A stretch of DNA of 64,000 nt from Amphibalanus amphitrite (lineage: Eukaryota > Arthropoda > Thecostraca > Balanomorpha > Balanidae), in assembly GCF_019059575.1 (NCBI RefSeq), contig NW_024882028.1, positions 310,001-374,000 on the forward strand, given 5' to 3'. The position numbers were made by a program, and so were the translations under genes. Shown piece after piece: positions 2,340-55,600 of this stretch. How positions within the stretch are numbered: the first letter of the stretch is position 1; every line of letters begins with the position of its first letter. The notes under the pieces are model-generated. The model did not search any database and was not told the origin of the DNA. It saw nothing but the letters and a program-made list of their open reading frames with translations.

Positions 2340-3180
2340 TGGCCACCCTAACGCAAAATTGACCTGACCTTAGGATCAAGTGACCTAACCTCAGAAAAAG
2401 TTAGAACCCTCGTCATAGCTACACCGACTGAACGATCGCCTTGAAACTGTCAGCGATTGATAAGGGTACCAGCATATATGAAATAGGTATATATTTCAGA
2501 ATTTTGATTTGAGTGACCTAAGGTCAGGTCAATTTTGCGACCTCTCCATTAGGTAGGTATAAGTCAATGGGAGAAAATTGAAAGGCGCCTTTTTTTGTAC
2601 GAACGTCATTCAAAGCACTCTCAAACACCGAGTTACGGGTAAACTCGATAAGCTGAAGCGAAAATGGCACCTGTGACCTCTCCTGATGTCGGATGTCCTG
2701 AGGTCATATCAGGTCATGAAAGATCCCCAGCATTGATAGAAACATGCTAGAGCGATGAAAATACCTCAGGTGTGTTCAGCTCGACGATACGGATCGACTG
2801 ATGTGCAACATGACCTATTCTCGTCTGGTCATGACCTTGACCTGAATTCAAATTTTAAAAATGACCTTTCAAGGTCAACTTATAATTCATTCGACGCGTC
2901 TCGACGAGAGGGGCACGGGGCTGGCAAAAGCAATATCGCGGCTCTCTTGAATTCGTGAAAACGGCTATTTTTAGTTGTTGCCCTCTGGAGGCAAACCGTT
3001 CACCTGAGGTCAAATCTGAGGACATGCAGGCGAAAGAGCATTAAAAGAGCTATCGAATGCGCTTTTCCGCGGCGCTGTAACTCTATTGGTTCCCGAGTTA
3101 GCCGTCGGGTGTTTCGAAAATTGTTGAAAGACAAAATTTGACCTTTGATGCCTCTGGTGACCAGACCTTTAGCCTCACCT
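2340..3180 (+). mobile_element. Fragment of the GGTCA-rich TTAA MITE family
   Basis: The stretch keeps the internal order seen in the full element at 30321-31520: paired TGACCTGACC motifs, a block containing CATAGCTACACCGA, TATATxTCAGAATTTTGAT, the TCAATGGGAGAAAATTGAAA block, TTCAGCTCGACGATACGGAT, and the GCTTTTCCGCGGCGCTGTAA block. The G-run/C-run ends and TTAA sites are missing, so it is a truncated copy. No protein is encoded. Confidence 0.65.
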
Positions 3181-4976: not shown

Positions 4977-5438
4977 TCATTTCACCAGTGGCCTCGTCTT
5001 TCCTTCCTCCTGACATGACTGATCCTTGTATTTCTTGACTTCCGACATGTACTGCGACCATGCATCTTTCTTTTCAGTGTCTTCATCTTCATCCTGCTTT
5101 GCCTTTTTCACTTTTCCTGTGGGAAGTATCTTCCCACCACGCCTTTTGCCCACAAATCCATACTTTGGTCTCGGTATCTCCTTTGCAGACTTCTTACTCT
5201 GCTCAGGTTCACTCTCTGCTGCCTGAGACGAAACCGGCGCAGGGCCACTGACTTGACCGACCGTAGACGTGCTTGGCTTTGAAGTACCACTTTGCTGAGC
5301 TTTTTTAAACATTTCTAGAAAGCTTCCATCATTTTTGAAAACGTTTGCAGGCATTTTAACTTCATCTGGAGTAGGGATTGTTCCTCGTTCACGTCCAAGT
5401 CGCCTGTCACCCGACGCCATATTCGTCAAACTTACCAA
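4977..5438 (-). CDS. TRIR: TRIR (telomerase RNA component interacting RNase) homologue, single exon
   Basis: The 153-codon frame reads minus from ATG 5438 to a stop at 4977-4979. The second Met (5420, MASGDRRLGR) may be the true start, because the family starts with a short basic Met-Ala stretch. The C-terminal half carries the family signature in order: VFKNDGSFLEMFKKAQQ, a linker rich in Ser/Pro/Gln, YGFVGKRRGGKILPTGKVKK, an acidic run, DAWSQYMSEVKKYKDQSCQE, and the terminal KTRPLVK that also ends human TRIR (C19orf43). Human TRIR is reported to be an exoribonuclease that trims telomerase RNA; activity here is inferred only by homology. The human gene has introns but this copy has none, so it could be an intact retrocopy or a lineage with intron loss. 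Confidence 0.9.
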   Translation of the reverse strand: MVSLTNMASGDRRLGRERGTIPTPDEVKMPANVFKNDGSFLEMFKKAQQSGTSKPSTSTVGQVSGPAPVSSQAAESEPEQSKKSAKEIPRPKYGFVGKRRGGKILPTGKVKKAKQDEDEDTEKKDAWSQYMSEVKKYKDQSCQEEGKTRPLVK

Positions 5439-6289
5439 GGACTCAATATTTATTTAACGACGAAGTTACGACAAAACAATCCTCAGTGTAAATGACGTCA
5501 TTAGTTTGAACCGAGATCTACGAGACGTCCCTCACTGTCGCCTGCATTAGTAGGGGAAGGATAGTGCATAATGCCGGGGCAATATGAGACAGTGCATACT
5601 GCATTTTATCGTAATTCGTAACCCGCGCCGGGCCGGTGCTCGGCGCCAACCCTGCCGGGCCGGAGAGGTGTCTGAACTCTCTTTTACGATTTTCGTAAAA
5701 ATTACAGGGTACCTAGGTATACTTTCGAAGGCGATCTAGCTGATGGCACCGGTCGCTACTCGCTCAGAATTCTTTTGCGCGTGGCACGTGCGTTTCAATT
5801 TTCGGCTTTCGCCCATGTTTATAAGTCAATGGGGTTTTGGGACACTTTTTGCGCGATCGCAAATGGCGGGAAAACGAGCCAAGGAAGAGGTGGTTTTCTT
5901 CCCAGCATTTTATGGCAAACACGTTCCGGTACACGCCCGTGTGCGCCGGTTGGGACTTTTCAATTAAGAACAATCACTATTCTTTAGAATTGTGATTTTC
6001 TATTGAAAATCCCAACCTGAGCTACCTCTCTAAGGGGGTGTTTAACGTTTCTGCCGCGATTTTGGTCATTTTGATCGCCGCCGAAACGGCACGGTCAACT
6101 TTCTTGCCATTTTCAGCGTTTGGTCTCGTATGGGGGAGCTAACTTCTGGCAAAGTTGCATAGAATATAATGGGCCCGTTTTGGGGTAATCGGCACGTGCA
6201 TTTTCCAATAGGGTTAACATGGGAAAAATTTAAAATGCGATTAAATGCGATTAAAACATCGATTAAAACATCGATTGCGATTAAAACGT

Positions 6290-12544: not shown

Positions 12545-12783
12545 GTACCGTAAAGTGGGGCTATTTGAGACAGTGGGGCTATTTGAGACAGTATTTAAAA
12601 TCGCTATAAAATGAAGATCGTTTGATTTTTGTGTGATATTTTTGCTCGGGGAGGTGTGGAATCGAGCAGTTAATCGCCTAAACAAAAAATTAAGCATGAA
12701 TTTTAAGTGATTTTTATTTTATAGCAATTTTAAATACTGTCTCAAATAACCCCACTGTCTCAAATAGCCCCACCCTACGGTAC
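12545..12783. mobile_element. Foldback MITE with GTACCGTA ends
   Basis: The left arm (12545 to about 12612) has GTACCGTAAAGTGGGGCTAT and a second GTGGGGCTATTTGAGACAGT. The right arm is the reverse complement and ends CCCTACGGTAC at 12783. Arms are about 65 bp and the loop about 105 bp. There is no coding. Confidence 0.75.
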
Positions 12784-15951: not shown

Positions 15952-16113
15952 CTAGGACGCCATGAAGAGCTCAATATAGCGCGTGCCTATGTGCTGCTTG
16001 TTCTTCTCGAGGATGGCGCGTTCTGCCTCAGTGCGAGACGCAAAGGAAACCATAGCCTCACCGGATGGCTGCCCCTCTGCGTTCTGCTGAAGCTGGATGC
16101 ATTCCGGAGCAAT
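15952..16113 (-). CDS. fus: ESRP last coding exon (second half of RRM4)
   Basis: On the minus strand the acceptor is CATCTGTTCGCAG and the exon reads [20 protein letters not shown], a Ser/Arg/Glu-rich helix, then [16 protein letters not shown] and TAG at 15954-15952. The G(R/Q)xxGEA and RYIEL(F) blocks are the RNP1 strand and last strand of hnRNP F/H-type quasi-RRMs. It joins in phase 0 after FFEGFE of the previous exon. Confidence 0.9.
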   Translation of the reverse strand: MAPECIQLQQNAEGQPSGEAMVSFASRTEAERAILEKNKQHIGTRYIELFMAS

Positions 16114-19100: not shown

Positions 19101-22100
19101 CTGGCGCGGCCACGGTCCTGGCATATTTGGCCAGAGACGGCGGTCCGATCGGGGTGGGTAAGGGGTTAAACAAGTCGACCACAACCCAATCGAGGGAGTT
19201 AGAACTTAGAACCACCAAGATACAGCGCTCTAAGTAGGCATAAGTACAAGTATGAGTATAAGACCATGGGACCTCCGACTTGCGGACCGCCACCGACCGT
19301 GACCGCGCCAGTGACGCTGGATGACGCCAGACGTCATCCGGCGTCAGCGGCGCCATGCCACCATGCCGTGTTACGGGCGGACGGGCGGTCCGGGGACCGC
19401 GCGTCCGTCCCATTGCCGCCATCGCCGCGGGCCAGGGACCGGACCTCAGCCGACGTCCAAATACTCGAGGTGAGAACACTCACCAGACTGAGACAAAGGC
19501 AACACATCGGTCGGTCTGCATCCCCGCGCGGCGACGGCGGCACAGTTAAAAGAAAACCCATAACCAGAAAGACCCCTAACCTCAAAGCCTTCGAAGAATT
19601 TGAGTATGTCAACTTTGCTGGAGGAGTATGGCAGGCCTCGCATCCTCACCAGGGCTGGTGACGGCCCAGTGGTTACCGGAGGGGTCAGCCCGTTGTAGTA
19701 GGAGGTCGGTGAGACAGGCGGCGACGGGTACGCCTGCCAGTAGTACAGGCTCGGCGGGTACGAGTAGGCCGGTACCCGCGGCGTGAGCGGCGCCACGGGC
19801 GGTAGCAGCGCCGGCGGCGCCGCGTACGTGTACAGGCCGTAGGGTGGCGTCAGCATCCCGCCGCCTGAGGGCACACAGAGGTCAGTCGGGGTCGGGCGCC
19901 GCCGGCGGACGGAGACCGGCAGCCGCGGCTCACGGCGGGCACACAGACAGAGACGAACTGATGGAAATGCTGGAGCCCGTGAGGCGGAGCTCGGTGCGCC
20001 GTGACCGGAGGGGTCGGCAGGCGGCGCCTCTCACAAATGTGACGAATGACCAGCTCGTGACGCTCGCCAGCGGCAGTGAACAGTGACACCAGAAGTGGCC
20101 GTAATGTCACGCGTCAGGCATCCGTGACGTCAATGTCACAGCGTCATACGCTCAAGGGCCCAGATACAAAGCTGAAAGAGGTTCGATGAAGAGGTCAACG
20201 TATTCTACACTTGATTATATGTCCTCCGACAATGGGAAGAGATCACACAATTGATATAATTTCTAGCTCACTTCTGGTGCCACTAACACAGCGCATGTAT
20301 TTAATATCTACAAATGTTTTTAATCTACTCTAAGCCTATCTACCCAACCCGCTGCAACCAGCATACCATTGTTAAAGCAGGGCATGCGATCCCACACCAT
20401 CGTGCAAACCAACACCGAGTTGTGGACAAAAGTGGCTGGGTCCGCTTCCGCAGTTAGCCCTGGCCACGGCTGTCCGTTCATGCAGAGAGCCCAGCGCCGA
20501 GACGGGACAGGCCGCCACCGACCACACCGACAGCACGAGACAGACGCACCACCACAGAGGAGAGACAGCCTGCAGAGTGGACAGAGTGGACAGCCCAGAG
20601 AGCAGAGCAGCCGGAGAGAGTGAGGGGAGAGAGCCAGATGAGCGACAGAGAGGCGCCGCCACCGGTGAAGGCCCCCGGAACCAGGACATAAGCCCAACAT
20701 ACCTGCACTTTGCCGCCGCTCCCTCGCACCACCAAATTCGCCACGCTTACAACTGAGCCCGTCCGACAGACACGCACGCACACCCAATAGGCCAACAACT
20801 GTTTAGTTTGCCCGCTAGGGTGACAGAAAGGTAGGTAGGTAGGTAGGCAAGTAACTCAACGTAGCCCAGCCGGAAGAGACCAACCACTGTGGAGACAGCA
20901 TGTGTTTATTTTAGTGCGTCTGCATCATACATGTAGGTCAACCGGGCCCAACATCTCCAGTGCGTTGGCGGCGGACGCGGGATGAGGGAGGCACTTGGGA
21001 GAGAAACAGCCAGGATCTCGTCGAGACGCGGCCTCACGATACACTAGGACAACAACGGTCATGCAAAATATCTGGGAATGTCTCAACGGCCGCCACTAAC
21101 CCGACGAGATTCTCAGCGGGAAGACTTGGTTCGGCCCGAGGCACGTTGCAGGCCGGCGGGACCGGCAGGTCACGGAACGGCACTGGAGTCTGGGGCAGCA
21201 GGATCGGGGAACAACGCCGTGGAGGTGCCGCAGGGCCACTACGGCGCTACAACAAAGCTACCGTGAAGCATACACGCGCTCCGACGAGACGCCCCCGGCC
21301 GTGCATTGGCCGCCCCGACCCGCGGCAGGCAGCGGGCGCCGGCGCGTCCGGCGCGCGGCCGCCCGGCCAGTTAATAGCGGAAGGAGATGCGCCGTGAATC
21401 CCGTGACCCCGGCCGGCCGGCTGGCGGCGCTATCGTGAACAAGCTAGGCACCTTCGTGGCCCGTCCAGATCCCGTGTCGCGCGACCACTGCCAACCGGAA
21501 CTGGGACTTCCAGCAACGACCAACGACCAACTCTCGCCGAAACTGGGCCGGGACATGCAGCGCAAGTCTGATACCGGTACATCATCAACCGGAGAGCAGG
21601 TGTCTCCGTGTGAGGGAATGTTTGTTCACTATTGCTGCTTGGATAACCGGGCCACAGTGTCTGAGAGCCGTTTGTCATTGCTGTCTGTCCGTCAGCACAT
21701 CCCGACTATGGAGAGGAGAGAGAACATTATGTACACACCACGCAAACGCATGCGCCCTAAACGTTAGTCGGTCGTCCCGCTGCCTGGAACGGCCAACAAC
21801 CTCACGCCGGCCCCCCAAGCCTCCCCCGGACACATGCACAGAGCCGGCCGCGCCCCGCCCGCCCGCCCGTCCAGGTCACTACGGGTCAAGGTCAGTGTCA
21901 TCGGGCCGTCACGGGAGCCTACACCCTCAAGCCGCCGAGAGTCCGGCAGAATCACGAGGAAGGACTTGATGGGCCTCTGTCTTTTTCCGTCTCACTGGGA
22001 CGGACAAAGGAAGTCGCTAAAATTATTGTCACGCTGATAACAGCTAAAACGGTTCACAAGTCACGATATTTATGTCTATCTACAGCTGAGAGACCGAATA

Positions 22101-22578
22101 AAAGACAGATCGGGAGTCTCATCAACACATAACAGTCAGTCACTAGCGTAGCGGAATGTTGAGCAGAGGACTGCCCATGTCAGGTTGTTCGTTGTCTAGA
22201 GCGCCGGGTACAGGTGGTGGGAGGCGGAGTAGGAGGCGGGCAAGGCGGCCGCGGCCGCGGCGGCCGCCGCCGCACTGCTCGAGGAGCCAGCCATGCTCAT
22301 CAGCGGCAGCGAGCCCGACTGCCAGGCGCGCTTCACGGCGCCGCTGGCGTCTGCCGCCGACACCGGGAACGCCTGCTCCCAGGAGCGTTTGACTCCGTAC
22401 GGGAACTGCATCAGGCCCTGCTGTACGGACAGTGGCTGCATCTGAGGCTGTGCCTGCGGCGGCGCCGTCTTGGCCAGGCTCTGCAGGTCCACCATGCCAG
22501 GCAGCATGGCGGATGCCGCCGACACCGGCATCTGCAGCATCTGCTGGGTGGCCAGCCCGGAGCGCTGCAGCAGCATCA

Positions 22579-22610
<32 letters not shown>

Positions 22611-25600
22611 TGTTGCTGCTGCTGCAGCGCGGCCATGTAACTGAACGGCACGGCGCCGCCCAGGGTCTGCACCATCGGGGAGGAGAGGGAGGTGACGGTC
22701 GGCGGCGGCGGCGGCATCGACTTGATCGGACTCTGGGGCGACAGGAGGGAGGGCGTCTGGGGCATCGGTTTGCGTCGGAGCGCGGCGGCGGCGGCAGCGG
22801 CGGCGGCCGCGGCGGCCTGGCCAGAGGGGTCCCACGAGGTGGCGGGCAACATACCGGGAGATACGACCAGGGCCTGCTGCGCAGCCGCGGACACGGAGCC
22901 GCTCAGCACCAGGTTCATATCATCGCCGGAGCACTGAAACACCTCGATGTAGCGCTGCTTCTTGCCAAACGGCATGTAGCGGTGGTGGCGGTCCTTGGAG
23001 GCCAGGAACGCCGCCTCCTCGGAGACCATCTGAATGAACGCCTCACCCGACGGCTGACCCTGCGGCACACACGCACACAACACGCACACGCACGGGGACG
23101 GGAACGTCAGGGCCGCGGCAGGGCAGACGGGGTTCAGCTACCGCTCGTTACACGAGAGGCGTCTTCAGTCTTCACATTCGAATAGGCATTTTGGTATCGA
23201 AATCCGAATTCACACATCGATGCTTTTGACGGTTGATAGTTTGAAGCTTCCTCGTCCTATTGGGTCAAATGAATAATGCAAGCTATCCATTTTTAATCCA
23301 AACGTTTTGAACGAATAAGTTGACAAAGGAAGACGTAACCCAAGCATTTAGCCCGGTCTGTGACGTTCGTTCGGCAAATAACATGTTAGCGATAAAATGT
23401 AAGCGTTTAAGTTCTAAAATTCATCCTAGGCCTTCTAAAAGATCATTATAACGAACGCTCTCCAGTACCCTCCTCTCCTCTCTCCTCCCACCCCTCTTTT
23501 CCCTCCTTACCTGCGCATTGATCACCATATGAACGCCCTGCACTTTGATCATGTGCGCCAGATCGCCGAGGAACTGCAGGATGTGCTCCACCTGCGCCTC
23601 GAATGGCAGTCCCCGCAGGCGGATGCAGTCCTTGCGCGACCCGGACGTGATGATTTGCTGCGGTATCACGGGGAACGGCTGCGGAACCTGCGCGATCAGA
23701 GGCGGCTGCTGTTCGTACGTGCGCGGGTCCATCGAGCGGTTCAACACCTGTAAACACAGAGAGGGAGGTGGAGATCAGGTCAGGTCAGGTAGGGTCGGGT
23801 CGGGTCAGGTGCGAGAACGTGGTCAGGGAGGTCAAAGTGAGTGTGAGAAACTCGTTGATGCTTGCAGATCAAATGCTACTTCAGAAAGCATTATATTTGA
23901 AGTCGTATGGCCTCACAAAAAGTATTCATCTGATTATCAATGGCGGGACAGCATCCACGCTGAACATTTGTTCTACTAAGTCGTAAACAAATGACCGGGA
24001 CGCAACGTAGACGCGGCCAGCTGGAACGGCCCGGCCCAGCCTACACAGCGTCAAATCGATTTACACGGGGCGCATCGCGTTTGCGTGTTACTCGAACACA
24101 AACGTGGCCAGTCAATTAAACCGTGTCACGCTCCGACCCGCCATTCATGCCGTCTACCTGTAATGGTCTGAGTCGATAACGCTCATTGCTCAGGTCATTA
24201 CCGTTAGACTATGGCACCTATGAGCCAGCAAAACGACATCGTTTGTTAGAGGCCATTAGACTCGTTGCCCCCACCCTCTCACACGAGCTGATCGGTCCTT
24301 CGGCCAATGACTGGTAGGTAGGCATGGTGTGCACGTTTATCTTGAGGTAGCGCAAATAAATCAATTTTGCGATGCATTAGCAGACATGTCGAAGATTAAA
24401 AAGATGGTTTAATATTCTTGAGAAAGAAAAATAAGGAACCAGATGGGGGCATTTAATACCTAAGCAAACGCAACACGATCAAAATTCCATTTTTGCATAC
24501 TGCGATATTTCGACAAGCGTGGCGGTTAAGTTAAACTGTCCTCTGAACTTCGATCGAAGACCTAACTTTGGACCGAACGAGCGTCTAATAATCCGCGGGT
24601 CTGTAACTTTAAAGATAAGTTGTTTGACGTTCTAGTGCAATTGGACCCACAAATGACGCACAAAGCATTGAAGTACAGCGACATTTCTTGCAAAAGGGGC
24701 CAAGCACCCACCGAAGGATCATCTAAGAGGTTGTTTATTAGAAACTTTCATGTCATATAATCAAACATTCCTATATTTAACCCGCGCGGGGCTGGGGGGG
24801 GGGTAAATTTTACCCCCCCCCCTCGCGAATATTTGCAATATCTCAAAAACGGCGGCGCGCAGCGCCGCCAAACTTTCAGTACCTTTTCTTACATCAGTTT
24901 GACACGTTCTCTGAAAATTTGAGCGAAATCCGTCGGAAATTTTTTGAGAAATTGACGTTTTAGTGACGTCATGTTCGCCATTTTCGCCTCAAAAACGGCA
25001 AAAGTTCAAACGCCGCTAACATCTTCATTTTTAAAGTCGTCGGGACGTAACAAAAAAGGATATACGTAATGTTATTTTGTCTATCAAATGGCTATCTCGG
25101 TTTTTTGAAAATTTTGGATTTTGGCCCAAATTTTTTCAAAAAACTGACTTTTTTGGAAAAATAACTATAAAATCCAAAATTTTGAGTGTATCGAAAAAAC
25201 CGGAATACCTATATGTCAGAGAAGTGGTCTATGTGCACCTACATACCAAGTTTTAGAAGAATCGGTTCAAAAATGTGGGAGTTATTCAAAATTGTATGAC
25301 GTCACGACACACAAAATTTTTGAAAAATGACTTTTTTGGAAGTTCTAGACCTCGTACGGAAACAAAAATAGCACCATTCGATTCGCCGTGAAAAACTGCA
25401 TCAGATAGACACCTTTTTAGGCCTTAACAACCAACTTCACAATTTGACCTCACTTGACCTGACCTTCACCTGACCTTGGCCTGAAATTCATCCAGAGGTG
25501 GTCCATATCACTTATTGAGTGTGCCTATTGAATTCTATGAGTAAAATGACCCATAAAACATGTGTCGCACATGCCCTTTTCTATATTTTGTTTTTGGTGA

Positions 25601-31600: not shown

Positions 31601-34600
31601 ACCGACGGAGCACTAAACGACCTGAACTACTCGTTTTAGGCGTGAAAGAAGGCCGTAACTCAGGGTACCCCATCGACATCTAATCGTCCAGAGCCGCTAC
31701 AGGCAACCACTCATAGTCCATCGTACCCCAGGCGGGTCGATGGCCCACACACCGCCGACAGCACAGAGAACCATCAGTGCAAGGATGGTCAATAGCGGCG
31801 GTGGGCGGCGGTATCCACATGCGAGGCACCGGCGCCGCCGCTCCTGAACCCATACAATGCACACGATCGGTATAAGACAGCACAGGCGCTGCGGCGACGG
31901 TGTTAGGTTGGGGGGGGGGGCACCGGAGGGAGGAGAGGGGCACCGCACACACAAGCGCTTCGCAAATAGTAGACGCTCGATCGTAGCTGAGTACTTAGCG
32001 GACGAACGGAGCAGAAGTGCGAACCTGCTAAAACGCGAGGTCTGGCTGGCGAAAAGAAACTGAGGACAGCTGCCAGGTCAATGTTGTATGACGTCAAAGG
32101 TCAGCTGACGAAGATGAAGGATGCGATTCCTCAGTGACTCACTAGAGACACGTGATGAACGTCTCGATGTTGAAGTACGGCGTGGGCGACAGACAGACGT
32201 GTCAGAACAGAATCGTCACAAAAACTAACTAAGGGCTACTCGAACTCGAATCACTCTGAATAATCTGATGACGTGATGACGTCCTAGACACCCAAGGACG
32301 CCTGATGACGCACTGGGACTCACGGAGCGACTTTACCTGGACGGCTGGGTGCGTACCGGTCCCCTGCTGCCCTGCGGACTGGGAGCGCTGCAATGGCGGG
32401 GCTCGGGACAACGCTGTCGAGCCAGCGGATGGCAGACTGTCGGACGGCATGTCATGCCGCACCTGTGCCGGGCCCGCGCTCCGGGCCACAGGTGCGCTGT
32501 CGCCCACAGCGGCCGACGGTCTTATCTGCCGCGTGGCACCGCCTCAGTGGCTGTCCGCCGGCGGACGGGCGGCGCTGCCACCAGCCGAGGAGCGCGCACT
32601 TGTGGCGTCCGCCGTCACCCCGCGCCGCAGGCATGACATAGACGCAGTCCAAGCCACAGCCACAGCCACAGTCACAGCCACAGCCACAGCCACAGCCGTC
32701 CCAGCCAAAGCCACTGCCGTACTGACCCAGCCACCCGCCACAACCGCAGCCACAGAAGGCCAGCTGTTAGAACAGCTCACTTTTAGAAGTTAGAATAGCT
32801 GTTGCATACTAGCTAATAGGTAACCATCGACCCTATTATAGCCAACTCAATGAAATCGATTATATAATGTATGGAGGAGCCGAAATGAAAAGCGAAGAAG
32901 CCACAAACAGCACCACTAAATTACCTAATGCTTCTTCAGTTTGAAGTTTACGCAATAGCCGGTTCCCTAACGAATGCTGATTCAATTGCGTCCAAGGAAA
33001 TCGTTTAGAATTAACTTTAAAGGCAATTGGGACTAGTTGCATTCGTCCGTTCTATTTGGCGAAACCGACCGGAGGAACATTCACGAAAGAATAACGATAT
33101 AAGTGCAAACATATCCGTTTGTTTGTTACACACATGTGGTAATAGTAGATCCCTTCCCTTACAAACACCCACCGCATAACACGGCTCTGTCATAAGTGAA
33201 GCCATAATCGGCTGCTCCAATTGACAGCTGCGTCGGCGCAGGGGTGAAGTGAAGCCCCCTAAACACCCACGCTGTTGACAGCGACAACACGTTTAGATCA
33301 TAATAGGGGAGGGGCGGTCGGCACTCCGGCCAAATTGACCGCTGTAACGTGGGAAGGGGCGAGATACCTAGGGAGCGATACCATAGAAGAAAGACGTTCA
33401 ATTATATTGACATCTTATAGCGTCATGCAAACTCGATTATTACTCATCGGTTTTATTTAAAAAGAATAACGGAAAAACCAGTTGGTATCATTTTTGAATA
33501 TTTTGAAATAATCACACCTTCAAATCTTATTTCGAGCATGAAAGTAAACTAAATTTGTATTATTCGTCATAATACACATTGCTACCCCAAGTTAAAATGG
33601 TTAATTAAGTACTAACTAAAACTAAAAGTAATTATTTGCATCGATAAAAATAGATTGAAGATTTGGGTGCAATTCAGGGTCAAATAACTTGACACACTGG
33701 TGCTCCAACTATTTTCATTAAATTTGGTGCCATTTATCCTGTCGCACGTCCATTGACCATCTAAGGAACCAAGACACGTAAAAATATTTAATTCCTTACA
33801 GTCACCTACCACCTCCCCTAGACGCTTGGTGACCCTCGTTTGTCCCCTACCGCCCCTGCTGATCGCCAGTGACCCCCGTTGACCCCTGAGAACCTTGTGA
33901 CCTCTACTGACCCTATTGACCCGTGACCCCCGGGCGACTGACCTGCTGCACCTCTGCCACGGTGCTCCGGAAGAGCTCAATGTACCGCGAGCCGATGATC
34001 TCACGGTGCTTGCTGAGCGCCTTCGGAGCGTCGTCCTCGTTCTCGAACTGAACGAACGCGTCGCCGGTCGCCCTGCCGTCGGGCTTCTTGACGAACAGCA
34101 CACCCTTTTCGGCGAACATCACCTGACAGCTTGACTCGCCGGCCTCGAAAAACTCCAGCTGAAGAAGGAGACAAGAAACACCGAGTCAGTTAAACACTTA
34201 ATATACCTCTGTATCCCGGTCCACAGAGGTCTTTGGTTCAATGAGACGCTAAATGGAACACAGAAAACAACGCTAAGAGCCATATGAGAGACCTATCACT
34301 GTTCCGCGTTTTCTTCATGATTTCTATTGAGGTGGTGTGACACAATGCGATATCACACGATCAGCTCGAATGATCTAGTCATCTCACTTGCGGAGTCAAG
34401 AAGTGGCCATTATCAGGTTATCGTTCTACAATCATTTAGGTATGAGTACGCATTATTTCGTCTCCTAGAGGGATCGACAAGGGTTATCTGTCGTGGAGTT
34501 TGAGACGAATGACGTGTTACCATACTGTGGAGCGGCTACTCGAAAGATAGCTCACGAAGGCCGCTGTGGGGTAATGTCAGAGAGACACGCCACGCCGACC

Positions 34601-37600
34601 AAAAGCGCAGATACGCAGGAGAAGGAAGACAGCAAGCACGCCTGATTAGACTCTCCTATCGGGTTTTCGACAATTTGGTTATACGAATCCGGTGCAGCAA
34701 CCTCTTCCTATCAACAACAAATTAAATCGTACATTTCTTTTTCAACTCAAGATAAACGTTTAACTTAGTTACTGTCTAGTTCGCTCAAGCCTTGATTAAC
34801 TCGAATCTCTGATGACACCCTTGCGCGACTGGACGTTTTACATAAATATGACGTTCTTCTGAGAGCAACGCTCTGATTTTGTAACCCTGGGACGTAACAA
34901 CGATAGTGAACCGCTGATAACGACCCTCGCTTTTTAGATGGCACAACATAGGCATTAACGGCCACTTGGGAGACAATGCTACAAAACCACGCGAAATTTC
35001 AGTTTTACAGTTGCGAAACACATGGGTTTTTGAGGATGATCACCAACGGCATTTTTCTTTGAAAAGTAATATCATTAAAGGGACCCTCCCACCTTCAAAA
35101 TAGTTAATGAATTGGCATGAAAGTGATGTCCCTTGGTTCAGAAAGAGCGAAAACGAATATCTACCAAATTTCACCGAAAAATATTCACTGGTTTTCAAGA
35201 TATTAGGCTTTTACTTTTGTTTACTTTTTGGGATCTCCCCTGTTACTAGCGACTTTATTTGGAAGCAATAATTTGGCAGCCCTTAAGTGCGGCAGACGTT
35301 GCGCGCAAAGCAGCGTATACCACCACGTGTAAACGATGGTTTTAGTCTAAGATTTAAAAATCGTTAGATCTCCGCTGACGTCACAAATTCTAAGGGGGCA
35401 TTCCAATGCATTAGCCCCTTAGAATCCGAAAACTGCAAGTTTGAAATTCCATATCTTCGAATTAAAGCATTTTTCGATGTTGTGAGTGTCCAAACCGGTA
35501 TTTGCAGGTCATGGCCACCAATTTGGCTATCTCAACTCAAAACTAATGTTAAGGTGGGAGGGTCCCTTTAAAGTGCATGCCTGAGTTAAGCGCGCATCCC
35601 TGAACGATCACCAGCACGGCAAAGTACGTCTCCCAGAGCGCCCGATAGCCACATGGCGTTTTCGCTGCCCGGTACGCCGCCCCTACCATCCCTCCAATCG
35701 CCTGCAGGCTGTCAGCGAATCCAAAGTCTGCCGATAGACTACCGGCCCTCGAGAAGTCTATCTTGTTTGCTGAGCTCCGATAGGAAAAAGAAACTTGGCA
35801 TCGAACACGGCGATAGGCAGCGAATAGCGACATGAATATAAAAGCTATATTTGATAGATACATAGGTAAGTACCTACTTTTTAACAAAGATGGGACCAAT
35901 ATTCTATGGCGTTGTTTGTACAATGGAATAAGCCCGCATCATCAATATGAACATCTTTTAACACTTCAAGTCAAATAATTGTGAATAGTTTATCTTTTGC
36001 AAAACGCTCGTTTTTCTTGTTAATTCGTTTTGAATTCAAGTAACAAACAATATTGTAGTCAGACATGTGCATGAATCCGAGAAAATGGATCTGGGATCTG
36101 ATCCCGCGGATCCTGATCTCGGATCCGTCGGGATCATAGATCCAGCTCTTTAATTTATCGAGAGATCCGTAGGGATCATAGATCCGAGTCTAGTATTTTT
36201 GCTTGAGATCCAGTGGGATCATAGATCCTCATTTATTTTTGTTCAACACAGAAATCCCAAAAGATCACTCGTTGCAACTCACAAACGTTCTTATTTAGTG
36301 CTTTTATGTGATAACACGTCATAATCCATAGTTTTATGGCACTTATTGACATAGAAACACTTGGAAACCTGGTTTCGAATGTTGTTCATCAGGTGGGATC
36401 CACTCAGATCATAGATCCATGCTTTTGGTTTATCGTCAGATCCTGTGAGGTCATAGATCCAGGATAAAATTTTCACGCCGGATTCGGTGGGATCATAGAT
36501 CCAAACCTGTAATGTGCCTCGAGATCCACTGAGATTGCATAGATCCATCACTCGGATCCATGCACATGTCTGATTGTAGTGGTATAATATAGTATTACCA
36601 ATGTCTGTGTCTAACTGACTTGCACTGACACCAAATCGTCCACTCTGCTGTTCAAAATCAGTGTGACGTACTCCACTCAACGATCCCGTCTAAAGGTCGG
36701 TTCACCAGTGATCCGCAGATAAAGGTCAGTTCACGCCGCTTCTTGTCAGCGCGGCTGCTGGCGTGGCCGCGCCGAGCGCCGTCCCTCTCACGCGCGAACC
36801 GGGCGCCTGCGGCGAGCTATGCGCCCGCGCGCTGACCAGTGACCGGGGGCCTGGCTCGGCCCGTCAAGGTCCGAGTTCGGTAAACATCGGGCCCTGCGCC
36901 GAGATAAGGCGACGGCGTGCAGTCAACCAATAAACAGCGCCGCCGCCGCCGCCGCCGCAGACTTACGGCTATTTAAACAGAGACCTCTCCTCCATGGTCG
37001 ATGGTAAGTAGTAGTAGAATCGAGAATGAATTCAATATGCGTTGTCTAGGATCATCTTTTCAATTTTTTCCGTTTTCACGAGGTCGCCATTCTGGCTGCC
37101 TGCTTAGATATTCAACAACGCTTTTTTGCCTGGCGTTCATGACAAAACTAGCCGTCTCTGCTATATTGAAGGCAATATAAGACGTTTGCGAATTTAATAT
37201 CATTCCACAAAGACAACGAATGAGGGCAATCATCTGACTTACCACTTGTTTCGCCGTGCAGTCATAGGGCAGCCCCCGCATTCGAACGATGACCTGACCA
37301 CCGAGCTTCAGGAACTCCTGGGCCTCGGTATTTACACCTGGGAATAAAAGCACGACGTTAGTCACACCGGTCGATAGGTACCGAAATAATTGGAAACTCT
37401 CGACAACGAAATACCAAATGTGAGAACAATTAATTCTTTAAGAGTCGAGCAGCGTAGATGAACATGACAATGCTACTGGAACGAGCGACACATCACCTCA
37501 ATGATTATTCGTGCAGATTAAACATGTTGCAGGGCTGCCATCAGACTTCTGTGGCCTTTTTGGAATTTGTCCCCCCAGAGACGGTCTGGTAAGACCCTTC

Positions 37601-46600: not shown

Positions 46601-49600
46601 CGTTCATTTTGATAACGTGACATTCATATAACTTATATCGATAAACTTTTGCAGGCTTCTTATTATTTGATTGTTAGCCTGAGAATTGCGCTAAAAATAA
46701 CACATGTTTCCCTTAATTTAGTACCGGTTCAGACTTCAGTGCTAAATGGGACCAGTGCCACTGTTACATGAGGGCAATTTATGTACATAACTTAATAGCT
46801 CCAAAGGAAGTGAATATTTACGATGCCAGTGCACATTATTACTTACGTTAAAGCTCAGTTATTTTCAAAATAAAGAAAACGTTTTTAAGACAATAACTAT
46901 GCACCATTATAAGTTTTGTCACAGATAGGCATCGCAAAAATGTGTCGTATCATGCCTGAAAATGAATTATAATTTATAAATAATCATCGCTGCCGAAAGA
47001 ATTGTAACACAATTATAAATTGACGCCATAATGAGAGCGACACTGACCAAATTAAACATTAAACTTACAGGATATTAATTAACAAGGAAGCACCCTCGTA
47101 ACTCATTGGCCTCGTTGCGCAACAACTGGTCAGATGGTCGGATGTCTTACAAGCGCGTGAGGCTGACGGCAGCCAGCCTGACGTTATCCATTAACGGACA
47201 TCAACCGATCCCGTACCTACAGCGTACACAAACACATGCAGGGTGGGCTTCTCTTGAAGCAGCCTCCGATGAACCACCTCCGACTCCTCCCACGTTTACC
47301 AATCTCCCCTCCCCCGTTTACCAATCTCCCTCCCCCGTTTACCAATCTCCCTCCCCCCATTACCAACCTCCCTCCCCCGTTTACCACTCTCCCTCCCCCG
47401 TTTACCACCCTCCCCCCGGTTTACCACTCTCCCTCCCTGAGTTGCTTACCTCCTGCGACATTGACGAAGTCCTCGCCGGTGGCCTTGTAGATCTCGATGT
47501 AGCGGTTCGAGATGTGGTGTTTGTGCCTCTTCAGCGCCATGTCGCGATGCTCCTGACTGACGAACCTCACAAGCGCCTCGCCGTTGCGCCGACCCTGTTG
47601 GCTGAGACAGAGCGCCACGCCGCCCCTGGCGCCGTACGGCGAGGGGTAAGGATAGCTACCAAAGTGCGACTGTGACGTACTGGGCAGCATGGCTGGGGCG
47701 CGTGCTGCGGCGGCGGCGGCGGACGCGACGCGACTGGTCCTTGTCGCGGCGGCTGCGGTGGCGGCGGCGGCAGCGCGGCCTCAGCTGCAGACCGACACAG
47801 GTGCACACTGGGGGACGGCGAGCGGCAGAGAGTCGGCCCGGCGAGCGGCGATCGGCGAGCACCCAACCGAGTGGCCGTCGCGTCCCGCGGCGCGCGCTAT
47901 CTTATCAGCTGAGGAGGCGCTCGCCGGCACTATCAGTGGCCGACACAGCTCAAGCGCGGCGCACGACCAACGGAGCGTCTTCAGCACGTCTCAACAGGGC
48001 TCCTCCGCCCAGCGTGACGCAGCGAGGTCGCTCTCCTCACCACTCGCACGGCTCTCCGTCCGCCGACTCGGGACGCACCAGGCCCCGCGACCGCGCGACA
48101 CAGACGACCGACCAGACGTCCCGTGCGCCAGACCACCCCGCGGAGCGAGCCGGTCTGTCGGCGCACAGGACCGAGCGCGCGCGAGACAGCACCTCGCGTC
48201 CGCGGAGCGCACCGCGGGCGCGTTTCACAGATCGATAATCGTGTTTGTCAGGTAAACAGCGCTGTCGGAGTCGGCGACGTTCTGCACAGTGCACCGAACA
48301 CGGCGTCGGCACCACGACTGACCGTCCGCCGAGCCCCGAAACAGAGGGCCAACGGCGAGCCCCGACCACTCCGTATGAGCCGGCACGTAATTGCTTCGAT
48401 TAGGAGCTCCGAGGCGACAGGTTGTCGACGCGTCCGGCCGAGGGAAGGACCTCTACGACCGGCCACAGCACCCCGGGGAGTACAGCGCAGGGAACGGGCC
48501 GTGTCAATAAATGTCATTGGCGGCCACAAACGAAATCTACTGAAATGGAAAACGCCGAGAGAGACATCGGGGTATTTTCTTTTGGTGATTAAATTTCTAC
48601 GTGAGTTATCCGTAACATGATAGCCTGATAATCCCCAATGACCTAACTCTAAACCTGACTCGACCTGACCTGACCTTTCACCCACCTCCGGCCACCGCGC
48701 CCTGACCTGCCGGCCCGCCACGCGGCTCGATGACAGGCCGGGCGGTGTGACAGCTCTGAAGGCTGTGTCGGACGGAGGTGTCGGGTTGACAGCTGCGGCG
48801 TGGGCTGCGCCACCAATACCGGCTGCGATCGATGGTCGCCGCACTGAGACCGACTGAGTCGGCGAGCAGTCACTGGTCGCCCCCGCTGCGGCCCACTCCG
48901 CTCCCCTAATGTCCGGCGCAGAGACCCGTAATGGCCCGCCGCCATCCCGTAGAGCCCGTCCGTCCGTCCCGTATCGTCCCTGCCCGTGCCGACTTGCTGA
49001 CCAGTTTCGCGATGTTCGGCGAAATTTCGAAGTTCGCAAAGCTCGAAGTGTCGCAAATGCTTGCGGAACATTTAACTCCCTCCCCTTTTCCCGTCTCATG
49101 TGTCCTTTGTATAATGACTGGAACTTCCGGTTGGCGACCACCGACCAGCTGTGCTTCCCAGTCTCCCTCCCCCACGCCCCGCCTTTCTGCCATCCAGCTG
49201 TCCCCCCGTCCCACCGTCCCAGCTGTCCCACTATCCCTCCACTCTTTCTCCTCTGTCCCGGCACTCCGCCGTCCCGTAAATCTTTCCTCGCGATGTCCAC
49301 TGTCCCTTCCTCCGCCTCGCTGTCCCACCGCGACCGTCCCACTGTCCCACTGCGACTGTCCCACTGTCCCTCCGTTCTCCCACTATCCCCCAGCGCCCCT
49401 GTTCCGTCGTTCACGCCGTCCACACAGCTATTGCCACGTATTGAACCGCCACGCCGCCGCCACTGCAGGCCGCTTTGTTACCGCGCCGTTCCGATACGAT
49501 ACGCGGCAAAACGCAACACCATTAGCGCTAAAGACTCGTCAGTGGTGGCTTGTCGACGGTGAAATTGATTATCGATATCGCATAAATGCCGCGAAGGATG

Positions 49601-52600
49601 CGAAAATATGCTTGAAAACAATTGAGTCATTACTAAGCACACAAAAAGTGACAGTAATATAATTAATGGCCGTACAATGGTAATGCTAACATGATAAAAA
49701 TACAGCCTACATGAGTTAATACTGTGCCGATAACGTTTCCACAGAACCTAATGAACCATCTGGCATGGATTTCACAGATACGACCCCAGTCCCTCCATGA
49801 CATCTCCGGCTAAAATAACACGCCTGGAACGCATCACGGCCGCGCGATACGGCCCAGCCACGCGTCGGCGTCTCTTGACCGTCAGCACGCGCAGGACGGC
49901 GCGGCGGCGGAGGTACTCACTTGACTATGTTGAGTCCCCTGAAGAAGTTGGCAATGTCCTGGTCGGACGACTGCCAGGGCAGACCGCGGGCTCGCACCAC
50001 ACAGTTGCTGTCGACCACCTCCTCTCTGGAGCTGCGGACGGCGCGGCAGGCAGACTCGTCAGCCGGCGGCGCAAATGAGTCGGTGACGGGCCGGCCCGCT
50101 CGGAGCCCTGCCCGCGCCCCGCGCCCTCCCTCTCCCCCCCCCCCGGGTCCCTGCGCTCCGGGCCGGCCACGTGTGGTCCTGTCCGCCATCATAGGGGAGG
50201 GTGGGGGCCCCGGGGCGGCGGGGAGGCAGCGAGGGAGATCGACAACTGTGTAAATGTCAGGGAATGGTATTTTCAGTGTCCGGGTGAAAAAGGACGGCCC
50301 GCCGGTCCGCAGCGCCCGCAGGATGCAGTGACTCGGCTGCTGCGTCCCGTTCGTTTGCAGGGGTGGGTCCCAGTGAACAATCAACACAGGCTCTGCACGG
50401 TGAAACCCAGGCCCATCCTGTCAGTCGGAATGTTTGAGCTGCATGATTCCCTTTCAAATGGGGGCTTATCTACCCTTCCATTTCACATTTCGATTGCCGT
50501 CCTCCGCCCATTTCCCCTTCCGTAGGACGCTCCGTCCTTCCTAATCTCTTACCCCGCCTCCCATTCGTTAGGTATGAAATCGGAAAATGGGACGATAAAA
50601 GATGCATAAATTAAATCGACACAATAACCGTGAAAACAGGACAATCTACATTCTAAGATCGCCATGGTTATGCACAAACCTACCAATGGACTAAAGTCAA
50701 CATCTTTATACTAATATAAAAAATGTAATTGTAATTCAATATTGCTAAGATTAAGCCCTTTATTTCACGTGAGCTTTATTTATCCTTCATATAGGTATCC
50801 CGTCCATTACGAATAGCCACTCACCAGATTCCTGGCTCCAACCGCTGATTGATAGGTTCTGGAGAGTCGAATTTACAGCCTGAAACACAAGAAAATAAAC
50901 CTTAGTGACGACGGATAGGAGGCACGACCAGACATCACCAGGCGGGCCCCCGGGCTCACCGAAAAGGACAGTGGACGAGGCGACCAGCCTGCCACCTGCC
51001 AGACAGGGGCAGAACTATTAGTACAACCAGTCAGCACTAGTGGCATCGTGATAGCAGCCGTATGCGGTTCAGAGGTAGATGGAGGCTGGCAAGTATCTCA
51101 TAAAAAGTTTTAAACAAAAATCACCAGACGCTGTAACCCAGACTTCGCTATGTTGTCTGTGATGTGTAGGTATGACATGTGCCTTTGAACCGTGGTGATA
51201 GGCCTGCTTAATTCTAAGGACGAGAACGATCGAAACCAGCCCGCAAGTGCAGTATTATTTACTGGCCCGAATGTTTATAACGAGCCAAGTGCCCCAGGAT
51301 GCTGTTAATAATCAATCGTAAGAAACTCTGCCTGGTGTCTGAGCAGTGAGCACCCTCAAAAGATGAGCAGATCACCCATTGCCAGAAGCATCCGGTTAAT
51401 GCACAATGAGACAGAAAACAGAGACATACCACCCAACACCAACATAAACCATATTGGACCCATTCCTCTGCAGTTCTCAAACCACTGCAAACCAGATCAC
51501 ATTTCAACGGACCACCAAGCAACTGCATCTTTGGTAACGGAGATGATCATGCCGCTAAACCTCACCCAAGAGCCAGCGAGGAATATGCTTCACGCTTCAG
51601 TAGCATAACTGTGCACGTGCAGCCAGCCGTGTCTATGATTGGCCGCAAAAGCCACATACCGTATCACCCACGCAACGATACCCCGATCGGGAGCAACAGA
51701 TGTCATGAAAACACGCTAGCATTCTAGGGTGAGCTAGCTATCCGCACTCCGGGTCGCTCTGCTCAGTGCGTCGCGAACTGTTGTGTCATCGCGACCCCAC
51801 ATCCCGGTACCGTGGATTGCGGGGGCTCAAGATATTTAGATGAGGGGTAGGTAGGTGACTTTTCATAATCATCTACTTTGAGTTCAACCAGAGCGAAGAG
51901 TGAAGCCCTGGATACCGGTGTGTGGTCTGACGAGTGACGAGTCATCACACCCTGCATAAGTGTTGCACAAAGAACGAGGAAGCTTCAAGTATCTTTGATA
52001 AATGCGATCTTATAGCGGTTGTGTGTGCTGAGCAAGTTAGTATGCTCAGTTAGCGTATCACGTCTTTGCGCGTTGGCACGAAGCAGAGTCACGATAAGTT
52101 GTATTACAGATGAACGTCTAATGATTGATGATGATATAGTGCCTATCTGTGTGCTTTGTCAGGATGACGACCTCGGGTTGTCTAACCCTTCTGGTAAATA
52201 TTTGTTCAAAGCTCAGAGCTGAGAATCGACCAGATTGCCTTGACACTTTGCTGAGTTAGCATTTACCAGCAAACCCCAGCGACAGCGGCGGTGGCCGCAG
52301 CGCCCCCTGCCGGCGGGTGGCACAGGTGGCGCTGCCGTCGCGGCCCGGCGCGTCCCCGGCGGCTGTAGCCCGGGGCGGGGGCGCGGCGACTCGCGGTCAG
52401 TGGCACCGACTCCCGACCGACCGAGCCTGTCTGTGACTGCGCGCCGCGCCGCCAGCAGTGAAAGTTAGAGCAATCATGGCGCGGTACGCACTCCCTCCCC
52501 TCTCCCCTCCCCTCCCCCTGCCCCGGCACGTCGCTCACAATTATACATGCACGCGTGAGCGAGATAGCACGCGTCGGTTTGATTCGAGGGCCCGAGCAGG

Positions 52601-55600
52601 GACGAGAGCTGGTCGAACTGCGCTCGTGGAGTGCGCTCGAGCGTAATAAGCTGTTTACCGTAGTAGGGGTGTTTCACGCACCATGGGCGACCTTGGGTAA
52701 TGGGTTTACCCCACTAGTTCGGGAGGAGCGAGGTGGTTCAAGTTACAGAGGACCCTAACCACTCTTAGATAAGTAGAGGCCTTTTGCCATGTCTCAATAT
52801 TCTGACGCAAGCGGCTTCGTTCCAGAAACTAATGACTTCTTTATACCTAGGCCTGCAACAAACTACCTAAATAATAGATAGGTACATACGAAAGTAAAAA
52901 CAAAATAAAGTTATTAATCGGCTTCAAGACCACCGCTCCCTTTCTCTGTGCTCTGCCCCTCTCTCCTGCCATGGTTGATCGGCCCTCAGAGCGCTCAGAC
53001 CAGATTTCTCGCCTCCATGGGACGACCGCAGCCGTCGTTTGATGCCTGCCGAGCCGGGGACAGGACTGGACTGACGCCCGAAACAAGTCGCAGTCGGCCG
53101 GGACGCCGTGGTTTCGGATCACTTTCACTATCGGTGAGCTGACCGCACTATACCGCCGCCGGCAGTTAGCCTCAGGGTGACTGACAGCAGCATGACCCTG
53201 GTATAGACAGTCGACACCCAAAAATCCAAAAAGTGACCGAAGGTATACCGAGAGATGAGAGCACAATTTTGCAAGCTAGAAACTAACGGGAACAGTTCGA
53301 GATTTCTTTGACAGGTTAACATGCTCACTGTCCGGCGGGCACATGACAACACAGTGATTGTTGGGAGGGAGGTTTCTGTGAAGGCAACAAATGAACTTGA
53401 AAGGGAAATTTTAAGCTACCAGCCAAAATGCATAGCAACAAAAGTAAATGTTCAGCCTTATAATATGTTGTTCCTAGTTCCTAGGCTTCACAGGAGTACA
53501 GGGAACTTTTTCTGAGGTATGCCAGTCAACCCCCAGCAAAGGAAAGTCCCTAAACGGTTTCACCACCTTTCTATCGAGTCCCACACAAGATAAAGCGTCC
53601 AGTTACCGTCATATGACGTGTAGCAAGTAATACATGGTATCGTCTACAATTGCTAGCGTGCTGCCCACTGGGTCGAAAGTCGTAAACGTGCAGGTGACAT
53701 TGAATGTCGCATAGGCGTAGGAACAGGGGGGGCCAGGTGGGCAAGTGCCCACCCACTTTTCGAGGTGGGGGGGCCAACCATGTGTTTTGGCCCACCCACT
53801 TTTTACTCGAGGCCCCTCTTCTCGATTTGAGAGGACGTCGTCACCTTCCAGAATAAACAAACTCGGTAAAAATAAGTTCCACGAATCCCCACGCACGGAC
53901 TCCATGGGGCCGTGATGGATCCAAGGAGGCCCTCTGTTCATACTTGTCAGTCGAAGCCCCTGACACTGATGGCCTGAGAGGCCCTAGTGGATCTGAGGAG
54001 GCCCCAATATCCACGCTGGTCTGGGGAGGCCCCAATATCCACGCTGGTCTGGGGAGGCCCCTGACACTGGCGGTCTGGGAGGCCCCTCTATCCACACTAG
54101 TCAGAGGTCTGAGACTGGTGGTCTGGGAGACCCCTCCATCCACACTAGTCAGAATAAATTTAGGCCCCTGACACTGGCGGTCTAGCCGAGGCCCCCTACC
54201 CTCACTAGTCAGAGGAGGCCCCTCTATCCTCAATAGTCATAAGAGGCCCCTGAGACTGATGGTCTGGGAGGCCTATCCATCTACACAGTAGTCAGAGGAG
54301 GCCCCTGAGACTGATGACCTGAGAGGCCCTTATAATCACACCAGGCAGAAGAGGCCCATGATACTGATGGACTGAGAGGCCCTTCTATTTATACTGGCCA
54401 CAGGAGACCCCCAAAACTTTCGGTCTGGGAGGTCCCTCAATCCGGCACCAGTCAGAAGAGTCCCCTGAGACTGATGGCCTGGGAAGCCCTTATATTCACA
54501 CTAGGCAGAGGAGGCCCCTGAGACTGATGGTATGAGAGGCCCTCATATTCACACCAGTCAGAAGAGGCCCCCGAGGCTGATGGCTGTGAGGCCCTTCTGT
54601 TCATATAACTGGCCACTGGAGGCCCCTGAAACCGGTGGTCTGGGAGGGCCCTCTATCCACACTAGTCAGAAGAGGCCCCTGAGACCGATGGTCTGAGAGG
54701 CTCTTATATTCATACTGGCCACAAGAGGCCCCTGAGACTGATAGTCAGAGAGGTCCACTCCTAATGAATCTGAGGGGCCCTCTATCCACATTTACACTTT
54801 TCTAGGGAAGCCCCCGAGACTGATGGTCTGAGAGGCCCTTTTATTTATACTGTCCACAGGAGCCCCCTGAGATTAATGGTCTGAGAGGCTCTTCTATTTA
54901 TACTAACCAGAGGAGGCCCCTAGGATTGATGGTCTAACAGGCCCTTCTATTTATACTAGCCAGAGGAGGCCCATGAGACTGATGGTCTGAGAGGCCCTTC
55001 TATTCAAACTAGGCAGATGAGGCCCCTGAGAATGATAGTCCGAAGAGCCATGCGGCGGCAACTGGCCGTGGCCATATTTCGGCTCGGTAGGGCCCCACAG
55101 AGCTCATGAGAGCAACTCAAGGGCTCCTAAGTAGACACGCTTATCCCCACGTGCCACGCCGGCTTCTGAAGGCTCCTTGTAGGCATCTAAGGGCCCTTTC
55201 CGGCCTCTAACGGCTCCACCCGCCTGTGATGGCTCAACACCAGTGTTTATGAGCGCCACACAGCGGCGCCTTTGAGGGTCATACTAGTGTCTCTTAGGGC
55301 CCTATATCGGTGGCTCTGGGGGCCCCACACCGGCGCCTCTGTGGGCCACCACACCTGTGCATCTCAAGGCTCTATAGTCTATAGGTACATCTGAAGGACC
55401 CACACCGACACCTCTGAGGGCCCCAGACCAGTATCTCGGAGCTCGGAAGGCCCCACACCGGTGACTCTGAGGACTCACCGGCTCCTGAGAGCACCATGTT
55501 GATGTCTAACGGCTCCACAAGGCCACTGAAGGCACAACACAAGCTCTCACTGAGCTCTTATGTCCATGTACCGGCCTCTGAGGGATTTAAGCCAGCGCAT

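Follow-up and report, generated by a model that had tools for sequence, protein, structure and literature searches.

The 64,000-nucleotide stretch of the Amphibalanus amphitrite genome analyzed here (contig NW_024882028.1, positions 310,001–374,000; hereafter the window, whose own numbering is used throughout) contains the 3' portion of a fusilli/ESRP gene on its minus strand. The gene probably possesses a regulated C-terminal switch, by which a fourth RNA-binding domain (RRM4) is exchanged for a tail with a motif of the nuclear localization signal (NLS) type. A sequence-only reading made before this study had described the choice as one between RRM4 and a low-complexity tail. Both ends were found to be coding and to be separated by one donor, as that reading held, but the tail is more than a low-complexity sequence, as it also contains an NLS-like motif. 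Given that the tail carries a nuclear-localization motif, the choice most likely shifts the protein between compartments besides adding or removing a domain. The better description is most likely a nuclear/cytoplasmic localization switch that also swaps a domain; its outline is known from Drosophila (PMC5478600).

The eight exons of the gene model, which covers the exons from 50031 down, all had GT-AG sites and formed a single open frame once spliced. Solved chains of human ESRP1 were matched in order, with RRM1 matching 7wrn (7.2e-46), RRM2 matching 7vki (3.1e-31) and RRM3 matching 7vkj (9.7e-32). Because RRM1–RRM3 match ESRP1 chains, the gene is on sequence grounds a member of the ESRP/fusilli family with three ESRP-type RRMs in order. 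Proteins of this family possess an N-terminal exonuclease-like domain. An exonuclease domain is also mentioned in PMC5703972.

The exon 23059–22855 ended in phase 1 at CCCG/GTATGT, where the slash marks the cut, and was joined in frame to the exon from 19864 at the acceptor CCCTCAG/GCGGC. The coordinates, phase and acceptor all agreed with the earlier claim that a phase-1 donor at 22855/22854 joins exactly in phase to 19864. The interval given with that claim, 19581–23059, does reach RRM4 but holds only its first half, the remainder of the domain and the stop codon being in 16113–15952. With the donor unused, the same frame continues to a TAG at 22198–22196. The claimed read-through to 22196 was recovered; it adds 218 residues beyond the split Gly codon, and the 15-Gln run placed in it was also counted. 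Scored with a 5' splice-site matrix, the deciding donor had 7.44 bits and five other donors of the gene had 8.55–11.45 bits, while that of the RRM4 exon was the weakest at 6.23 bits. On the whole strand, 67 of 4048 GT sites scored at least as high as the deciding donor, which is a moderate site, such as a regulated donor may be. The AATAAA at 20910–20905 was the only one between 22195 and 19865, a region that also contained two ATTAAA (at 20324 and 20305). A donor-like CAG/GTATGT at 20703 (minus strand; 9.74 bits) scored best in 23059–19865; it is intronic and past the AATAAA at 20910, and no exon was recognized there.

The length of the open frame was tried as evidence that the tail is coding and was rejected, because neighboring frames were also open (258 amino acids in the sense frame 22919–22143 and 340 in the antisense frame 22163–23185). 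Random frames were also sometimes open for 218 codons, including 140 of 3000 under a first-order Markov model of the tail and 20 of 3000 when the composition of 22854–21800 served as the model. The GC contents at the first, second and third codon positions were 0.69, 0.55 and 0.91 in the tail, 0.62, 0.53 and 0.91 in the tail without its homopolymer runs, and 0.64, 0.37 and 0.83 in the RRM1–3 exons. This pattern, which in the tail is like that of the exons, stopped at the tail's stop codon. Moreover, none of 1239 non-exon window-frames (overlapping, 654 nucleotides each, from five non-exon stretches of the gene) matched the tail in its difference between third- and second-position GC or in its synonymous-codon score. 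For the tail, PDB yielded no useful match (best E 0.028), and the open reading frame 22196–23137, which bears the tail, matched no Pfam family at E ≤ 1. No relatives of 22196–23059 were confirmed in microbial genome contigs (591 pattern matches) or viral contigs (600), and because microbial and viral collections were searched, the lack of relatives there says little.

A search of the genome assembly (807.55 Mb, 2644 contigs) with a 3601-base query returned the window itself, one copy on contig C131 and seven short matches of 36–45 bases, which were all within the GCC-rich poly-Ala stretch of the tail. The copy on C131 was 97% identical across 3.6 kb and contained all eight exons in the same order. 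In addition, RRM matches in the assembly were often equal-scoring pairs on different contigs, such as C119/C647, C86/C644 and C122/C1262 (150 of 451 candidates were scored). Because the eight exons were in order and such pairs were many, the copy on C131 is probably the other haplotype, although it may be a recent duplication; the selection test below holds in either case. With both haplotypes probably in the assembly, coding can be tested allele against allele.

Between the two copies, the tail differed by 10 substitutions, of which nine were synonymous and one was nonsynonymous (Gly/Ala), and by one in-frame indel of six nucleotides in the polyQ run, by which two Gln were lost. These counts are from a codon-wise alignment; BLAST gave nine mismatches and one gap, as it places the polyQ gap differently. 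Given 25.6% synonymous sites, the synonymous excess in the tail had p = 3.7e-5. The p values were 0.06 to 0.97 in the five other frames of the tail and 0.31 to 0.92 in three pseudo-frames of the next 1.29 kb. With the polyQ run left out, the ratio of synonymous to nonsynonymous changes was still 7:1 (p = 5.7e-4). The ratios were 17:0 for RRM1–3 and 5:0 for the short C-terminus. Thus, from the near-exclusively synonymous change between the copies, both C-terminal ends are under selection as protein, and the earlier view that both look coding was borne out by codon bias as well as by this comparison. The donor, acceptor and AATAAA were unchanged in the second copy. Use of only one end, with the other a decayed or never-spliced relic, would fit a deciding donor below five of the six other donors and an RRM4 exon donor that is the weakest of all by the matrix used, as well as a gene model predicted from DNA. 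However, neither end was damaged in either copy and the changes between copies were almost only synonymous, and we regard such a relic as very improbable.

The fusilli-D tail peptide QSMKRSYENAFQQE, which is kept in flies and other insects, is sufficient for nuclear localization (PMC5478600). A 14-residue stretch of the A. amphitrite tail was aligned to it at 22399–22358. Its nine-residue core, VKRSWEQAF, scored 32 against the fly core MKRSYENAF, a score equalled by none of 50,000 shuffled tails and none of 50,000 shuffled cores. It was also the best of 88,234 stop-free 9-mers in the six frames of the window, the next of which scored 23. The RRM4-bearing C-terminus contained no comparable motif (best score 12) and no pair of basic residues. 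Judged by this match, the tail is likely the carrier of a candidate nuclear-import signal. The motif occurred twice in the tail (VKRSWEQAF and VKRAWQ, 22319–22393), and this may be a duplicated signal. The read-through RNA might instead be non-productive, if a donor past the stop at 22196 were spliced to 19864 so that nonsense-mediated decay lowered ESRP levels. The strong donor-like site at 20703 would suit such splicing, but the AATAAA precedes it, the tail is selected as protein and its motif matches that of the fly, so that this fate of the RNA seems the least credible of the alternatives considered.

The other C-terminus is predicted to complete a fourth quasi-RRM (qRRM), which is possibly new. 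When its two halves were joined, RRM4 matched qRRM2 of hnRNP H (7zug, 4.2e-18; 6dg1, 4.6e-18) and also ESRP1 (7wrn, 3.8e-15). Alignment within the gene gave 32 identities in 78 columns with RRM1, 31 in 84 with RRM2 and 27 in 84 with RRM3; by sequence, RRM4 is about equally near RRM1 and RRM2 and less near RRM3. The protein terminates three residues beyond YIELF. The choice of C-terminus could mainly tune RNA binding or assembly, with RRM4 adding affinity or specificity, the tail serving as a disordered interaction region and localization being secondary or unaffected. RRM4 is indeed a complete qRRM, Ala, Pro and Gln make up most of the tail, and localization in A. amphitrite is extrapolated from the fly. 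However, the tail motif matches a peptide sufficient for nuclear localization in the fly (PMC5478600) and the RRM4 end is without it, and we consider this alternative unlikely.

Under the favored localization switch with domain swap, use of the donor at 22855/22854 would continue the mRNA with 19864–19581 and 16113–15952 and give a protein with four RRMs, the fourth a qRRM at its end, and no NLS-like motif. Non-use would carry the exon through the stop at 22196, probably as far as the AATAAA at 20910, and give a protein with three RRMs and an Ala/Pro/Gln-rich tail bearing a KRSxExAF motif. By analogy with the fly, the long form would reside in the nucleus and the short form mainly in the cytoplasm, with the choice of splice site coupled to that of the poly(A) site. 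Both mRNAs are presumably made in A. amphitrite.

Several points weigh against this interpretation. Both isoforms are predictions from genomic DNA. The nine-residue core was picked after the match had been seen, and the whole 14-mer was less distinctive, as its score of 28 was equalled by 42 of 20,000 shuffled tails and 157 of 20,000 shuffled peptides and tied by an unrelated site at 3034 (plus strand). The case for conservation of the tail between species draws on one published peptide. In the spliced protein, three stretches, not four, passed Pfam RRM_1 individually; the open reading frame of the last exon by itself gave RRM_1 at 3.7e-4. Finally, the available text of PMC5478600 states neither a fourth RRM in fly isoform G nor the exact position of the alternative 5' splice site.

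Features of the A. amphitrite fusilli/ESRP gene in the window (positions are those of the window; the slash marks the cut)
Feature	Position	Strand	Basis
Exon, RRM1 first half	49921..50031	minus	gene model; match to ESRP1 chain 7wrn
Exon, RRM1 second half	47450..47625	minus	gene model; ESRP1 match
Exon, RRM2 first half	37243..37337	minus	gene model; ESRP1 match
Exon, RRM2 second half	33943..34158	minus	gene model; ESRP1 match
Exon, RRM3 first half	23511..23747	minus	gene model; ESRP1 match
Exon, RRM3 second half, reaching the deciding donor; 205 nucleotides, phase 0 to phase 1	22855..23059	minus	gene model; ESRP1 match
Deciding 5' splice site CCG/GTATGT, cut 22855/22854	22849..22857	minus	7.44 bits; identical in second copy
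Read-through extension: Ala/Pro/Gln-rich tail, 218 residues and stop TAG	22196..22854	minus	codon-position GC; two-copy comparison
Run of 15 Gln (13 CAG, 2 CAA); second copy two Gln shorter	22580..22624	minus	sequence; two-copy comparison
VKRSWEQAF, match to core MKRSYENAF of the fly fusilli-D NLS peptide	22367..22393	minus	core and 14-mer scoring; PMC5478600 peptide
VKRAWQ, partial second motif copy; starts 19 residues after the first, 10 residues between	22319..22336	minus	core scoring
AATAAA, likely poly(A) signal of the long-tail form	20905..20910	minus	gene model; kept in second copy
Short-form exon: Pro/Tyr-rich linker and RRM4 first half	19581..19864	minus	gene model; second copy
Short-form last exon: RRM4 second half and stop TAG	15952..16113	minus	gene model; second copy
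AATAAA, possible poly(A) signal of the RRM4 form, only one in 15948–12000	12713..12718	minus	gene model

Elsewhere in the window, a frame of 158 amino acids at 4977–5453 (minus strand) had a protein-like sequence (MPANVFKNDGSFLEMFKK...) for which Pfam gave no family; it presumably resembles the small conserved nuclear protein TRIR/C19orf43. At 54017–55040, units of about 53 bases form a degenerate tandem array of 10.1 and 4.4 copies. The window had no Rfam match at the gathering score.

Similar to the hnRNP H/F quasi-RRM proteins, the gene encodes a domain, RRM4, whose best match is qRRM2 of hnRNP H; different from them, its RRM1–3 place it in ESRP/fusilli. The closest precedent is Drosophila fusilli, treated by Yang and colleagues in PMC5478600, the only paper in the literature searched that clearly dealt with fusilli isoforms and their localization. 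There, isoform D was found in the nucleus in 41 of 41 cells, whereas 39 of 39 cells had isoform G in the cytoplasm (their Table 1). As described in the available text of that paper, the fly precedent covers the event, the tail and the localization, and the choice of splice site in the fly is coupled to that of the poly(A) site. Similar to the D/G-type switch of the fly, an internal 5' splice site follows RRM3 and its non-use leaves an open tail in A. amphitrite. Moreover, an NLS-like peptide was detected in one tail, with the motif KRS[YW]E[NQ]AF that is sufficient for nuclear localization in the fly, and none was detected in the other C-terminus. One AATAAA is found after the tail stop and before 19864 and another after the RRM4 stop, both of which are candidate signals. 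Different from fly fusilli, the other C-terminus is predicted to complete a fourth qRRM and the tail has a second, partial motif; furthermore, transcripts and localization were shown in the fly and are predicted here. The window most likely holds a localization switch orthologous to that of fly fusilli. To the localization switch already known from Drosophila and from vertebrate ESRP, it contributes another genome in which both ends show evidence of selection, and it would tie the switch to whether a fourth RNA-binding domain is present. Two features are possibly new, the fourth qRRM, although a fourth RRM may have been described under another name, and a possible deep homology of the donor.

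At the end of exon 12 of mouse Esrp1, downstream of RRM3, two donors 12 nucleotides apart determine whether the residues CKLP are included, giving a nuclear protein, or left out, giving a cytoplasmic one (PMC5478600). The 12-nucleotide insert printed there reads KLP only if the splice follows the first base of a codon, which is phase 1, as in the window. By this derivation, vertebrate Esrp1 and the A. amphitrite gene would both have, soon after RRM3, a 5' splice site in phase 1 at which nuclear or cytoplasmic protein is chosen, with the localization predicted in A. amphitrite. They differ in that the donors of Esrp1 add or drop four residues and leave the downstream exons the same, whereas here a whole tail is exchanged for a whole domain. 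No second donor within 12 nucleotides of 22855 was found among the best 12 donor-like sites in 23059–19865, nor any CKLP-like peptide in the read-through, so that the vertebrate mechanism itself is not present here. The distance from RRM3 to the splice site in the human protein is presumably close to that in the window. The comparison suggests an intron and a switch point shared between the vertebrate and A. amphitrite ESRP genes, and the available text of PMC5478600 contains no statement of a switch point shared by vertebrates and arthropods. We tentatively propose, while leaning slightly toward doubt, that the phase-1 donor just after RRM3 is an ancient switch of vertebrates and arthropods that has kept governing whether ESRP is nuclear or cytoplasmic even as the signals changed. 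In the A. amphitrite lineage, its use would also mean a complete fourth qRRM in place of the nuclear signal, and RNA would be read differently by the cytoplasmic protein than by the nuclear splicing factor. If the donor is homologous to the exon-12 site of vertebrates, one splice site would have governed the localization of ESRP over a very long time, and the poorly known cytoplasmic role of ESRP would become testable in invertebrates.

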